IMG/VR virus record: IMGVR_UViG_3300025138_006934
Location: 1-39,004 of that record
Strand: one strand, 5' to 3'
Length of the DNA: 39,004 nucleotides
From: a virus
Shown piece after piece: positions 1 to 4,430 of this stretch (within the stretch, counting starts at the first letter, position 1; each line of letters starts with the position of its first letter). A model generated the notes under the pieces. That model was not told where the DNA came from, did not search any database, and saw only the letters and a program-made list of their open reading frames with translations. The translations under genes were made by a program, and so were the position numbers.

Positions 1-692
1 TGAATATTGAACAGATTGGTTACAACAATAAAGTTAATCTTAAATTAGCTCACAACAACAACTCTTTACTATTCAAACAAACTGGAAACAATAACGAGAT
101 CAGTTGGGTCCCACAATGGGGTCAACAAGGTGGTGGTGATTTAGACGGAGCGGGTAACTCATTACACTTCGAACAATATTGTTCAAGAGGTGCTGGTAAT
201 TGTGGTAAGTCAGATATCCAAATGCATATCTATGGTGATTCAAATAATGTTCGTTGGGGTCAAGGTACAACATTAACAGATATAAATGATACAACTTTTT
301 CAAACGACGGAGATGAAGGTGGTAGTCATACACTAAACCTAGACATTCATGGAGAAAGTAACAAACTCGCTGGCTATCAGAGAAATGGTAGTGCAAATAC
401 TTATAACGGACACACAGCTACAATTTATTTTTATTCAGATAATAATGAATTTTTTGTTAAACAAGAAGCAGATGGAGCTAAGACACTTTCATTAATAGCT
501 AACAATGACGGAAACACAGGTACAATTCACCAAAACGGAACTGCAGCTCATAACGCTACAGTAACTTTGAATGGGACAAATCCTACTACATTTAATTTAA
601 CACAAAATAGTAATACGGCTCAATCATATTCATTAACTCAAAACTGTCTAACATCAGGTGGATGTAGTGTCAGTGTAACACAAGGAAATTAA
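1..692 (+). CDS. Curlin-like Asn/Gln/Gly-rich repeat protein (5' truncated)
   Basis: The frame is open from the first bases (codons in phase with position 3) to the TAA at 690-692, so about 229 residues of the C-terminal part are visible and the start lies outside the window. The protein is a series of short polar beta-strand units separated by NN, GNN or GDSNN turns (IEQIGYNN, FKQTGNNNEI, YGDSNNVRW, HGESNKLAG, YSDNNEFFV, TLNGTN, NLTQNSNTAQ, SVTQGN). This spacing resembles the curlin repeats of CsgA/CsgB (S-x5-Q-x-G-x-x-N-x-A-x3-Q) but is looser. Two close Cys pairs (YCSRGAGNC and NCLTSGGC) are unlike classical CsgA. Export as an extracellular fibre subunit is an inference, because any signal peptide would be upstream. 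Curli-type genes have, as I recall, been reported in pelagimyophage genomes. An alternative is a beta-solenoid adhesin or fibre. The next gene overlaps the stop (TAATG). Confidence 0.6.
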   Translation, partial: NIEQIGYNNKVNLKLAHNNNSLLFKQTGNNNEISWVPQWGQQGGGDLDGAGNSLHFEQYCSRGAGNCGKSDIQMHIYGDSNNVRWGQGTTLTDINDTTFSNDGDEGGSHTLNLDIHGESNKLAGYQRNGSANTYNGHTATIYFYSDNNEFFVKQEADGAKTLSLIANNDGNTGTIHQNGTAAHNATVTLNGTNPTTFNLTQNSNTAQSYSLTQNCLTSGGCSVSVTQGN

Positions 693-856
693 TGTCAAAC
701 TGGATATTTCAAAAGTTAGTACCTTATGCAATAAGGTTCAGAGAATGGTCAAAAAATAAAACTTGGGTTCAAATACCATTGTGGATTTTAATATTATGGA
801 TGTTAGGATTTGCTAACCCTTATTGGTGCGTATATCCTGTTTGCTGGATTCAATGA
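692..856 (+). CDS. 54-aa single-span membrane protein
   Basis: The ATG overlaps the curlin-like stop (TAATG), and the TGA at 854-856 overlaps the next ATG at 853 (ATGA), so translation is probably coupled on both sides. The 54 residues begin with an amphipathic basic segment (KLVPYAIRFREWSKNK). A hydrophobic span of about 16 residues follows (IPLWILILWMLGFANP), then a short Trp/Cys-rich tail (YWCVYPVCWIQ) with two Cys four residues apart. No family is recognised. Its position between a putative secreted repeat protein and a membrane cyclase suggests a membrane accessory of that cassette, which is inference only. It is too small to rule out chance by length, but the double overlap and the clear membrane span argue that it is real. 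Confidence 0.6.
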   Translation: MSNWIFQKLVPYAIRFREWSKNKTWVQIPLWILILWMLGFANPYWCVYPVCWIQ

Positions 857-2703
857 AATACCTAACCACAATCTGGACTAGTATTGCACTTTGTATTGCA
901 CTTTTCTCTTTTAGAGTAATAGATTTACCCCTTATTGAACAAACTAGATTAAACGTCTTCGATCAATACATCAAAAGCTTACCCGACAAGGAATCCGATG
1001 TGATTATGCTTTCTATTGATGAACAGACATTAGATCAGCTTGGTCAATATCCATTCCCAAGACATACATATGCACAAATGATTTCAGACCTGCGAAATGC
1101 AAACGCAGGTATGATAGCATTTACTATTATGTTTCCTGAGTCAGATAGGTTCGGTGGCGATGAGGTATTCGCGTCTTGGATAAAGGATAATGGAATCATA
1201 CTCGCGCAGGATGCGAGCTCTCGCGGGCGCTCGGATACGGCCCCGTACGTGGGTACGGCCGCACTCGGCGAGGGCGACGCGTACGACTTTGTTCCTAAAT
1301 ACGGTGGGTTAGTTACTAATATATCTCAATTAGAAGAGCAAGCATGGGGTGTAGGATTAATAAATGGTAAGCAAGAAGTAGATAATATAACTAGGCGAAT
1401 ACCGCTTTTGTCCCAAATAAACGGACAGTTATATCCTAGTATGCCTTTAGAAATCATAAGGGTAATACAAGATAAGCCGTCATATAGCTTAAAAGTTAAC
1501 GTAGATGGTGTAAAAGATGTAATGATTCCGCCATATGATCCTATCAAAACCGAATATGATTCTTCTATATGGTTAAATACAAACTATACCCATAAAGAAT
1601 ACATATATGGTAATCCATTGCCTGACCTAGAAGGTAAAGCAGTTATTATTGGATTGTCGGCCTCGGGATTGTCGGCTCAGATAACCACACCCCAGGGATT
1701 ATTTCCGGCTCATCAATTACAGGCATCTGCTCTTCAGACTGTAATGAGTGGGGATTCTGTTTCTCGTCCGCAATGGACGGAACTGGCGGAATCCCTGGTA
1801 ATTCTAATTGGGTCTCTGGTGATTGTATTTGCTGTTTATCGGTTGTCGGCTTTGCTAGGGCTAGTATCCTTCGTCGGCGTTGTGTCTGGATCTGTAATCT
1901 CTTCATATACTTTCTGGAACGAGGCACGGGTTCTCCTTGATGTTAGTTATCCACTCATTGTATATATAACAGTTTTTGCCTCAGCATCGTTTAGTAATTT
2001 TTATAAACAATTTAAATTGAGACAACAGATTAAAGGACAATTTGGAACGTACTTATCTCCGGATATGGTTGATATGTTAATCAAAGATCCTACTTTAATG
2101 AAGCTTGGTGGCGATAGGAAAGAGATGACCTTTCTCTTCATGGATATTTGTGGATTCACCCCTATATCAGAGCACTATAAGAACAACGATGATCCAGAAG
2201 GATTAGTAGAATTAGTCAATGAATTCCTTGATGCAATGACAAAAATCATTCTCGCAAATGGTGGAACAATTGACAAATATATGGGCGACTGCATAATGGC
2301 ATTTTGGAATGCTCCTTTGCCTTGTAAAAATCATGCTGAAATGGCAGTTAAGTCAGCATTAGAAATAGAAGAAAAAACAAATGAACTTAAAAGAGTCTAC
2401 GAAGAACGCGGTCTTCCTGATATCAATGTTGGCACTGGTGTTAACACCGGCGATTGTATTGTTGGTAACATGGGTAGTGAATCCAGATTTGACTATTCGG
2501 TTATTGGAGATGCAGTCAACTTGGCAGCTAGGCTCGAAGCTACCGCTGCCAGACATGAATATATAGAATATAAGACAATCATATCATCCTTCACATATAA
2601 GCAATTACCCGATGGATACGTATGTTCAGAGATAGGTAAGATTAAGGTGAAGGGTAAAGATGAACAAATTCTCATATACAGCCCTTCCCTTATTCCAAAA
2701 TAG
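853..2703 (+). CDS. CHASE2-domain class III adenylate cyclase
   Basis: This is a 616-aa membrane cyclase predicted to make cAMP from ATP. The chosen start is ATG 853, which overlaps the upstream TGA; a TTG 30 nt earlier is also open. The order is one N-terminal span (about residues 5-22), an extracytoplasmic CHASE2 sensor (about 30-300, including LSIDEQTLDQLGQYPFPR and DLEGKAVIIG), three spans (about 309-385), a short linker, then the cyclase domain (about 427-606). Metal ligands D431 (FMDICGF) and D479 (KYMGDC), adenine-selecting K475 and D547 (FDYSVIGDAVN), and transition-state N556 and R560 (NLAARLE) are all present. The domain therefore looks catalytically complete and ATP-specific rather than GTP-specific. 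CHASE2 binds unknown extracellular signals in bacteria. A GC-rich patch lies at about 1201-1285, and the last 22 bp are duplicated just after the stop. A sensor cyclase is unusual cargo for a T4-like phage. Confidence 0.9.
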   Translation: MKYLTTIWTSIALCIALFSFRVIDLPLIEQTRLNVFDQYIKSLPDKESDVIMLSIDEQTLDQLGQYPFPRHTYAQMISDLRNANAGMIAFTIMFPESDRFGGDEVFASWIKDNGIILAQDASSRGRSDTAPYVGTAALGEGDAYDFVPKYGGLVTNISQLEEQAWGVGLINGKQEVDNITRRIPLLSQINGQLYPSMPLEIIRVIQDKPSYSLKVNVDGVKDVMIPPYDPIKTEYDSSIWLNTNYTHKEYIYGNPLPDLEGKAVIIGLSASGLSAQITTPQGLFPAHQLQASALQTVMSGDSVSRPQWTELAESLVILIGSLVIVFAVYRLSALLGLVSFVGVVSGSVISSYTFWNEARVLLDVSYPLIVYITVFASASFSNFYKQFKLRQQIKGQFGTYLSPDMVDMLIKDPTLMKLGGDRKEMTFLFMDICGFTPISEHYKNNDDPEGLVELVNEFLDAMTKIILANGGTIDKYMGDCIMAFWNAPLPCKNHAEMAVKSALEIEEKTNELKRVYEERGLPDINVGTGVNTGDCIVGNMGSESRFDYSVIGDAVNLAARLEATAARHEYIEYKTIISSFTYKQLPDGYVCSEIGKIKVKGKDEQILIYSPSLIPK

Positions 2704-2724
2704 CCCTTCCCTTATTCCAAAATA
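2681..2724. repeat. Perfect 22-bp tandem duplication over the cyclase stop codon
   Basis: Bases 2681-2702 are repeated exactly at 2703-2724. The first copy encodes the last residues (SLIPK) and the beginning of the TAG stop. The second copy is untranslated and contains another in-phase-looking end. It looks like a recent slippage or recombination scar at the edge of the accessory cassette, just upstream of the first early promoter. Confidence 0.9.
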
Positions 2725-2738
2725 GTCTAAGAAAAAGG

Positions 2739-2767
2739 TATACATCCTTCTAAAAGTACGGTATAAT
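2739..2767 (+). promoter_or_regulatory. Early promoter P1 (sigma70-type)
   Basis: The -35 box TATACA (2739-2744), a 17-bp spacer and the -10 box TATAAT (2762-2767) preceded by GG match the family of six promoters in this window. The -35 differs from the TTTACA of the other five at one position. It precedes the GNAT gene at 2800, with an AAAAGG ribosome site between. Confidence 0.75.
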
Positions 2768-2799
2768 AGCCACATATTCAAACAAAAAGGCTTTATATT

Positions 2800-3351
2800 A
2801 TGGATCGTATTGAGATGAAAAAGCAAGAAAGACTAGGTTACTTTGATACTAAGAGCTTAGACTGGGAAAAGCTTGGGTCTTTCCGTAAACTTCACGTATA
2901 TGTAGATAGATCAATAGACGGATATTTAGATATAGAAGTTGTTGATCCATCAGTAAAACATGGTAGATCTGCACAGCGGATTAAACGTGTTCTTACTGTA
3001 CAATTATCCTTTACAAAATTCAAAGCATACCACATCGATCTAGCTAAACTGGATCGTTTGTATGCTGGAAAAGGTATTGCTGCTCAGGCTTACCGTTATG
3101 TAATCAAAAGACTAAACATCACATTACAGGCTGGTTCAGCCCAGAGTAAAGGCGGCAGAAAGATATGGTTCGATATGGCTCAGATCATGGACTTAGCAGT
3201 TTATGCAAAGAGCCAATATAGTAAAAGATATGAAGTTGGTATCGACGTCGAACAACGCGAGGTGTGGTTACCGAATGGTAAAGATGTTTATGATGGGATA
3301 AAAGATATGTATGTATTTGCGATGCCTTGGTATGCTAGTCTCTCGAGCTAA
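2800..3351 (+). CDS. GNAT-family N-acetyltransferase-like protein
   Basis: The 183-aa protein lies alone behind promoter P1, with an AAAAGG ribosome site about 10 nt before the ATG. The central segment YAGKGIAAQAYRYVIKRL (about residues 88-105) resembles the acetyl-CoA pyrophosphate-binding motif A of GNAT enzymes (Q/R-x-x-G-x-G/A). It is followed by a QSKGGRKIW stretch (about 119-127), similar to the C-terminal part of phage GNATs that read QTPGGRAIW. The N-terminal half forms alternating strands, as the fold requires. The substrate is unknown. In phages such small acetyltransferases are early proteins that may modify host proteins or small molecules, which is inference. The family call rests on these two motifs only. 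Confidence 0.55.
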   Translation: MDRIEMKKQERLGYFDTKSLDWEKLGSFRKLHVYVDRSIDGYLDIEVVDPSVKHGRSAQRIKRVLTVQLSFTKFKAYHIDLAKLDRLYAGKGIAAQAYRYVIKRLNITLQAGSAQSKGGRKIWFDMAQIMDLAVYAKSQYSKRYEVGIDVEQREVWLPNGKDVYDGIKDMYVFAMPWYASLSS

Positions 3352-3396
3352 TACCTCTAATATACTTATACGTTTTGATCAAGCTAGAAAAAAGAG

Positions 3397-3425
3397 TTTC
3401 GTGACTTTTTCGTGAACTTTCGTCA
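3397..3425 (+). promoter_or_regulatory. Three helically phased TTTCGTGA/TTTCGTCA repeats upstream of P2
   Basis: TTTCGTGA occurs at 3397-3404 and 3408-3415, and TTTCGTCA at 3418-3425, with starts 11 and 10 bp apart (one helical turn each). The array ends 7 bp before the -35 box of P2. The same words (CGTGAACTTT and TTTCGTCA) recur inverted just upstream of P3. It looks like a protein-binding site; the binder is unknown. Confidence 0.45.
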
Positions 3426-3432
3426 GAGGGGG

Positions 3433-3461
3433 TTTACAAGTGCACTTGATTATGGTATAAT
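3433..3461 (+). promoter_or_regulatory. Early promoter P2 (sigma70-type, extended -10)
   Basis: TTTACA (3433-3438), 17-bp spacer, TATAAT (3456-3461) with the TGG extension immediately upstream. It drives the phosphatase gene at 3494 through a short leader with a GAGGAG ribosome site. Confidence 0.88.
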
Positions 3462-3493
3462 ATCCATATAATAAATTAAAAAGAGGAGTTATT

Positions 3494-3934
3494 ATGAAAG
3501 TTATATTTGATGTTGATGGTACTTTATTAGATATAGAGCACAGAAGGCATTTTGTAGAAGGTCCTAATAAAGACTGGGATACATTTATGGATCCAGCAGA
3601 AATGTTTAAAGACATTCCAAACCAACCAGTGGTTGATATAGCTATTGCTATGGAAAAGGCTGGACATGAAATCATCGTAGTTTCAGCTAGAAACGAAAGA
3701 CATAGAACAGTTACAGAAAATAGTCTTAATGTTGCTGGTGTATTCAGATCAGCTCTTTTCTTGAGACCAGACGGTGACTTTAGATCAGATGCGGTATTTA
3801 AGCAAGAAGTTTTGGATGCTCTTATTGCACAAGACTGGAAACCAGACATGGTCTTCGATGACAGAAACCAAGTGGTTGAAATGTGGAGATCTAACGGTCT
3901 TACTTGTGTACAAGTTGCAGAAGGTGACTTTTAA
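3494..3934 (+). CDS. PseT-like polynucleotide 3'-phosphatase domain protein
   Basis: The 146-aa HAD-superfamily protein matches the C-terminal phosphatase half of T4 polynucleotide kinase/phosphatase (PseT). HAD motif I is DVDGT (D6 nucleophile, D8), motif II is VVSARNE (S64), motif III Lys is about K103, and motif IV is DDRNQVVEMW (D122/D123). The end GLTCVQVAEGDF is very close to the T4 ending GVECWQVASGDF. The protein would remove 3'-phosphates from nucleic-acid ends, allowing repair or religation of cut RNA or DNA. The kinase half of T4 PseT is absent here, so either it is encoded elsewhere or the enzyme works alone. A GAGGAG ribosome site precedes the ATG, and the next gene overlaps the stop (TAATG). 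Confidence 0.85.
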   Translation: MKVIFDVDGTLLDIEHRRHFVEGPNKDWDTFMDPAEMFKDIPNQPVVDIAIAMEKAGHEIIVVSARNERHRTVTENSLNVAGVFRSALFLRPDGDFRSDAVFKQEVLDALIAQDWKPDMVFDDRNQVVEMWRSNGLTCVQVAEGDF

Positions 3935-4203
3935 TGGGTATGCCAGGATCAAAAATATTTACAGAAGACCATAAAAAGTTTCTTAGCCCTAATCAGCTTG
4001 TTACTAGAGATAGGGAAACTGGAATAATAGTTACATTTACTTTAAATGAAGAAGAGTTTAAATTAGCTCATTCTAAGAAAGATTCTGATTGGGATAAGAT
4101 GTGTGAATCAGTTCTTAAAAGAAACAGATTGGTTGATCTTGATGCTAAAAGCATAAAAGGAAACTATGATCTTATATGGTTAAACGGAAGACCAGTTCAT
4201 TGA
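3934..4203 (+). CDS. Uncharacterised 89-aa early protein
   Basis: The start ATG overlaps the phosphatase stop (TAATG), so it shares the P2 transcript and is probably translationally coupled. The protein is charged and soluble: a Lys-rich N-terminus, a predicted beta-hairpin (GIIVTFTLNEEEFKLA), then an alpha-helical stretch with many Asp and Lys. No signal peptide, membrane span or known motif is visible. The TGA at 4201-4203 overlaps the likely TTG start of the next gene. Function is unknown; adjacency to the phosphatase hints at nucleic-acid metabolism but does not establish it. Confidence 0.7.
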   Translation: MGMPGSKIFTEDHKKFLSPNQLVTRDRETGIIVTFTLNEEEFKLAHSKKDSDWDKMCESVLKRNRLVDLDAKSIKGNYDLIWLNGRPVH

Positions 4204-4430
4204 TTAAGATAATAAAACCGGGATTCGTATATCCCTCCGGTAAACCGGCCACAAGACCAGATTACGATTGTGAAGTGGGAAGGTTATTATCTAGAGAGCT
4301 AGAAAGCAAGTCCAGAAGTGTGGATGTTTATCGATCTAGCTCTCGATTCTTTGATAAAGTTCACGTAATTGTGACGAAAAAAAGGTTTACAAACCCTCAA
4401 AAATACGGTATAATACATACCATAACATAA
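4200..4430 (+). CDS. Uncharacterised basic protein (about 76 aa), 3' end overlaps promoter P3
   Basis: The most economical start is TTG 4200, which overlaps the upstream TGA (TTGA); an in-frame ATG at 4176 inside the previous gene is the alternative and would give 84 aa. The protein is Lys/Arg/Ser-rich (KIIKPGFVYPSGKPATRP near the start) with no recognised domain. Its last 15 or so residues (KKRFTNPQKYGIIHTIT) are encoded by the P3 -35/-10 region, so coding sequence and promoter share the same bases. This could mean that the ORF is real with an unconstrained C-terminus, or that it is only a partly used frame. Confidence is therefore moderate. Confidence 0.45.
   Translation: MIKIIKPGFVYPSGKPATRPDYDCEVGRLLSRELESKSRSVDVYRSSSRFFDKVHVIVTKKRFTNPQKYGIIHTIT
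4386..4414 (+). promoter_or_regulatory. Early promoter P3 (sigma70-type)
   Basis: TTTACA (4386-4391), 17-bp spacer, TATAAT (4409-4414) preceded by CGG. It lies inside the 3' end of the preceding ORF and drives the gene at 4449 through an AAGGAG ribosome site. A TCAC-N6-GTGA inverted repeat (4361-4374) sits just upstream and shares words with the P2 repeats. Confidence 0.88.

Follow-up and report, generated by a model that had tools for sequence, protein, structure and literature searches.

A phage curli-type module with a FecR-domain protein and a CHASE2 cyclase, and a type I secretion counterpart in a second phage group

The window analysed here is a 39-kb IMG/VR virus record, taken at its full length of 39,004 nucleotides. 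We found that the three overlapping genes at its start, encoding a repeat protein, a 54-aa protein and a CHASE2 cyclase on the + strand, are the 3' end of a larger phage module, whose order in relatives is two small single-transmembrane (TM) proteins, csgF, csgG, a curlin gene, FecR, a second curlin gene, a variable slot and the CHASE2 cyclase. This arrangement is probably a module for surface-fibre export with FecR-CHASE2-cyclase feedback, and one version of a portable adhesin-export sensor. In an unrelated set of uncultured marine phages, cyclases of this viral clade are joined, together with the FecR domain and the pair of small proteins, to TolC/HlyD genes and a giant adhesin. This second set is new here; in the literature searched we found no phage locus described as combining type I secretion, FecR and a cyclase, which is not proof of its absence.

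The curli-FecR-cyclase set itself is already in print for pelagiphages of SAR11-type bacteria, and the window is a further example, so that the novelty which the first-pass annotation had seen in the cassette does not stand. For podo- and myoviruses among the pelagiphages, PMC9599517 describes csgF, csgG, csgA/B, FecR and an adenylate cyclase gene and traces the set to Alphaproteobacteria; the curli genes of these phages are also described in PMC7029224 and PMC9004378. The earlier papers regard the role of the phage curli genes as unclear, offering lysis timing, nutrient uptake or neighbour capture; cultures with the phage Melnitz showed no clumping (PMC9004378).

Results

Continuity and Gene Order of the Cassette

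The gene overlaps were as originally described: the repeat-protein gene (3..692, +), a 229-aa open frame cut at its 5' side by the contig edge, ends with the TAA at 692 and overlaps by TAATG the 54-aa ORF (692..856, +), which in turn overlaps by ATGA the 616-aa cyclase gene (853..2703, +). The next gene (2800..3351, +) matched no Pfam family above the cut-off and marks the 3' border of the module, as it also follows the cyclase in the contigs L002, L015 and L035. Beyond it lie T4-like genes, namely a PNKP-phosphatase-like gene, gp59 and gp32. L002, an independent IMG/VR contig, is collinear with window positions 1-4416 at 95.6% identity over 4,429 bases and extends 6.9 kb further upstream. A chimeric assembly joint at 2700-2800, considered in the first-pass annotation, is ruled out, since L002 runs collinearly through the region and the gene at 2800 has the same neighbour in L015 and L035; the cassette is real and its phage origin is supported. 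At window positions 2680-2727, the final codons of the cyclase gene, stop included, are followed by a 24-base tandem copy of themselves. An RNA family search in the window found none.

The window itself holds the module only from the second curlin gene onward. In L002, the genes upstream encode two small single-TM proteins, CsgF (PF10614, 9.6e-8), CsgG (8.5e-50), a curlin-like protein, a FecR protein and the second curlin-like protein, so that csgF, csgG, curlin-repeat, FecR and cyclase genes are collinear as in the pelagiphage type VIII module. The csgG- and csgF-like genes predicted to lie 5' of the cassette are thus both present, collinear with the window, and with them a curli-type export context. 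IscU- and IscA-like Fe-S scaffold genes stand directly before the module in L002 (2257-2998). The genes before csgF in L002 encode 85-98 aa without a Pfam match; if these are the one or two 'histidine kinase' genes reported before csgF (PMC9599517), that label is doubtful.

To the 80 cyclase-bearing viral loci we added HTVC008M and Melnitz, and linkage was counted where at least 6 kb of upstream sequence was available. All 43 such loci carried the small proteins, csgF, csgG, curlin and FecR, with a second curlin gene in 34. When the small protein served as an independent query, csgG, curlin, FecR and the cyclase were present in 38 of the 38 loci with enough downstream sequence, and the synteny of the cassette is conserved from either end. 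No cyclase-only locus was seen in the curli group where the flanks were long enough. Among 50,697 phage records, the small protein occurred only in HTVC008M and Melnitz, the two cyclase-bearing isolates. Cyclase matches in an Acinetobacter 'phage' were set aside as surrounded by bacterial housekeeping genes; the record concerned (L084, named Acinetobacter phage MD-2021a) may be mislabelled.

The Curlin-Like and 54-aa Proteins

The curlin-like designation of the repeat protein was examined for the family and for the single sequence. A profile of 20 viral homologues matched the curlin-repeat protein 8c50 (2e-15) and the major curlin 8enq (1.5e-6), and eight of the 20 homologues matched Curlin_rpt. 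The window protein, as a single sequence cut at its 5' end, had no Pfam match, and its two canonical curlin motifs are not above the count in shuffles. The complete copy in L002 (6722-7573) has 283 codons and begins with a signal-peptide-like N terminus, as expected of an exported protein.

The 54-aa ORF, which has one hydrophobic stretch and gave no Pfam match, is judged from its codons to be a real gene, because the changes relative to L019 are mainly synonymous (23 synonymous, 4 nonsynonymous). The proposal that its product connects the curlin-like protein and the cyclase was rejected: of its 80 IMG/VR relatives, 44 have no module gene within about 4 kb, and in most loci the slot before the cyclase holds other small genes or none. 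The occupants include an 85-91-aa TM protein, a 69-74-aa protein and IscU/IscA-like genes, among others; in L025, L027, L029 and L031 the IscU/IscA-like pair lies between curlin and cyclase. The relatives of the 54-aa protein (L387-L466) share 70-94% identity and lie in varied contexts on contigs of up to 200 kb, and there was no match among the 50,697 phage records.

The CHASE2 Cyclase

The 615-residue cyclase query matched CHASE2 (PF05226, 1.6e-35) at residues 16-323 and Guanylate_cyc at 3.4e-20. Its layout comprises a TM-like segment at about 4-29, CHASE2 at about 16-323, TM-like stretches at about 308-378 and the catalytic domain at about 422-605; TM-like segments before and after the CHASE2 domain are the arrangement of an extracytoplasmic CHASE2 sensor. 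The first-pass annotation had listed every catalytic residue as present. This was correct for the metal-binding Asp431 and Asp479, the base-binding Lys475 and the transition-state residues Asn556 and Arg560, all conserved as in class III cyclases. D547, the remaining residue of that list, is conserved in at least 90% of aligned copies but occupies a different position from the base-specifying Asp/Thr, which is Ser549 in the alignment to CyaB (3r5g) and CyaC (1wc1), both class IIIb enzymes with Thr there. The window cyclase appears class IIIb-like, with Ser549 nearest to the class IIIb Thr, and its catalytic residues predict an apparently intact membrane cyclase, as had been suggested.

The key catalytic residues are kept in nearly all aligned viral cyclases, with Melnitz (L083, 12001-13809) as the clear exception: it has Asp in the 549 column and Ser in the 556 column, replacing the transition-state Asn, and its activity may differ. 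A search for a phage cNMP-binding receptor covered 24 records, many of which are fragments, and found none.

A GC-rich patch lies inside the cyclase gene at 1213-1302 (71% GC), with 80% GC at third positions, compared with 32% elsewhere in the gene. Its synonymous sites are identical to those of L004 and L007 at 28 of 29, whereas L005/L006 share 1 of 17-18, and an exact 29-base piece of the patch occurs in ten IMG/VR contigs. Fold analysis gave no support for an RNA structure in the patch.

The FecR Protein

PF04773 (7.4e-9) is the sole Pfam match of the module FecR protein. Its AlphaFold model, of moderate confidence (pLDDT 72), aligned at residues 61-223 with the PupR cell-surface signalling domain (Z 15.2), in agreement with a FecR/PupR periplasmic fold. 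Residues 30-128 of the model also aligned with 5ix9, the periplasmic anchor of an antifreeze adhesin that is secreted by a type I system (Z 6.9); this match may reflect a common arrangement. Neither Pfam nor the model gave an N-terminal cytoplasmic anti-sigma domain, the N terminus being a hydrophobic signal-like helix; because this domain is absent, the protein is not a FecR-type sigma regulator.

A Second Phage Group with Type I Secretion Genes

In L093, from a bin called Rickettsiales MED657, and in about 80 IMG/VR loci, the cyclase accompanies a giant FecR protein, OEP/TolC, a TM protein and HlyD, usually together with the small-protein pair. The OEP, TM and HlyD genes were present in 12 of the 14 loci with at least 3.5 kb of upstream sequence. 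The giant FecR proteins carry cadherin or RTX domains, and their N termini are homologous to the curli-module FecR (hhalign E 2.7e-27, 176 columns); a profile of these N termini matched 5ix9 at 2.2e-4. The phage type I operon contained no detectable ABC ATPase domain, the TM protein being without one, and CsgG was not found in most contigs of the group. In the contigs L170 and L233, the first cyclase has a second one next to it, which belongs to a csgF-csgG-curlin-FecR set, and L170 has the type I genes as well.

Genes for DNA polymerase B, a clamp loader, Thy1 and a relative of jumbo-phage structural proteins lie on the contig of L214 (137.6 kb), whose OEP protein had no match in the phage records. 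Gp23 was found in none of the 16 type I-group records tested, the L214 contig included. The type I-group contig G025 (L255-L261) is viral, to judge from its other genes; it also carries HSP70, DnaJ, SufBD-like, several radical SAM proteins and a TonB receptor plug domain.

Cyclase Phylogeny and Bacterial Relatives

In a tree built from best matches only, with a quick method, a branch with 99% support separated the viral cyclases from those sampled in bacteria. The curli-type and type I-type cyclases each formed a clade with 99% support, and the second cyclase of L170 and L233, with its relatives, grouped with the type I clade (92).

One scan of genome contigs returned first apparent phage contigs in metagenome bins and then cyclases of SAR86, Roseovarius, Ahrensia and others. 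Many of the bacterial cyclase loci have a FecR-domain gene nearby, and the cyclase genes of Roseovarius and Ahrensia are flanked by a FecR adhesin gene on one side and HlyD-ABC-TolC genes on the other; csgG was absent from all bacterial loci of the scan. Across 27 CHASE2-bearing genomes of Alphaproteobacteria there were 59 CHASE2 genes, of which 14 were within 3 kb of FecR, as compared with 0.24 expected from random placement, an expectation that ignores genome structure although the gap is still large. In the same genomes, none of the 59 was within 10 kb of CsgG.

Discussion

We favour the reading that the module exports surface fibres and senses that export. The curlin-like proteins would pass through Sec to the periplasm and leave via CsgG, the outer-membrane pore, with CsgF, forming fibres on the infected cell. 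From the periplasm, FecR would signal to the CHASE2 domain how export stands; CHASE2 would set cyclase activity, and cAMP could adjust functions of the host or of the phage to the display of fibres. The benefit may lie in the aggregation or capture of neighbouring hosts, or in shielding of the infected cell. Against this reading speak the lack of clumping in the Melnitz cultures (PMC9004378), the negative search for a cNMP-binding receptor in the 24 phage records, and the type I operon without an ABC ATPase domain. More tentatively, we suggest that an export-sensing core (FecR, the CHASE2 cyclase and the paired small membrane proteins) came from bacterial FecR-adhesin loci and was plugged into type VIII export in the pelagimyophages and into type I export with a giant adhesin in the unrelated uncultured group, so that infected cells might turn adhesive under cAMP-linked periplasmic feedback.

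Other roles have to be weighed against this. The CsgG/CsgF pore could act as a pinholin-like lysis timer with the cyclase as part of its trigger, as proposed for Melnitz (PMC9004378), and the small proteins do match a holin family, though very weakly (phrog_4898, E 0.007). A timer of this kind seems unlikely to us, as the curlin-repeat proteins and FecR are kept in all 43 loci and the other phage group pairs the same core with TolC/HlyD and a giant adhesin, CsgG not being found in most of its contigs. The conserved export substrates and the exchange of curli export for type I adhesin export would also be left unexplained if the pore imported nutrients or cofactors and the cyclase reported nutrient state, a role suggested in PMC7029224 and PMC9599517 that we regard as very unlikely. 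If FecR-to-CHASE2 signalling is a portable sensor for surface adhesins, both the lysis-pore and the uptake roles are therefore less favoured.

It is also conceivable that the cyclase alone raises host cAMP, in host takeover or anti-defence, and stands beside the curli genes only by shared transfer. The conservation of its catalytic residues in nearly all viral copies, Melnitz being the clear exception, would suit such a role. However, FecR and the small proteins accompany the cyclase closely in both export settings, and it was never alone in sufficiently long curli-group loci; we consider an independent action improbable. On the reading that we prefer, the recurrence of one sensor core with two unrelated export machines, the second of them serving a giant adhesin, suggests that the display of surface adhesins is what they have in common. 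Signalling from FecR to CHASE2 then becomes a mechanism that can be tested in phages whose hosts are very abundant in the ocean.

Among known systems, the module is the same in gene set and order as the pelagiphage type VIII module of HTVC008M, Melnitz, pelagimyophages and HTVC023P-type podophages, the window cyclase being 43% identical to that of HTVC008M and 33% to that of Melnitz. It differs from the published module in that a 54-aa gene precedes the cyclase in the variable slot, and in that the window group carries the module upstream of gp59-gp32, whereas HTVC008M and Melnitz carry it between gp32 and the tail genes. Compared with LapA/MpAFP-type type I adhesins, which have an N-terminal periplasmic retention module, repeats and TolC-HlyD-ABC genes, the second group gave the 5ix9 profile match, cadherin/RTX domains, and OEP with HlyD, but no ABC ATPase domain was found in the operon. 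Bacterial loci of Roseovarius (L096/L097/L100/L103), Ahrensia (L153) and SAR86, the last with a giant FecR-like protein, resemble the phage loci in placing a CHASE2 cyclase beside a FecR-domain surface protein; they differ in using type I secretion or some other export route, never curli, and Roseovarius has a full ABC transporter with its ATPase. The BiofilmReg operon of Burkholderia encodes FecR and a CHASE2 kinase, and a response-regulator insertion mutant lacks biofilm (PMC5192318). Its output is a histidine kinase with a response regulator instead of a cyclase, and its FecR is fused to LysM; as in the phages, however, a periplasmic FecR-domain protein adjoins a CHASE2 sensor, there in the control of biofilm.
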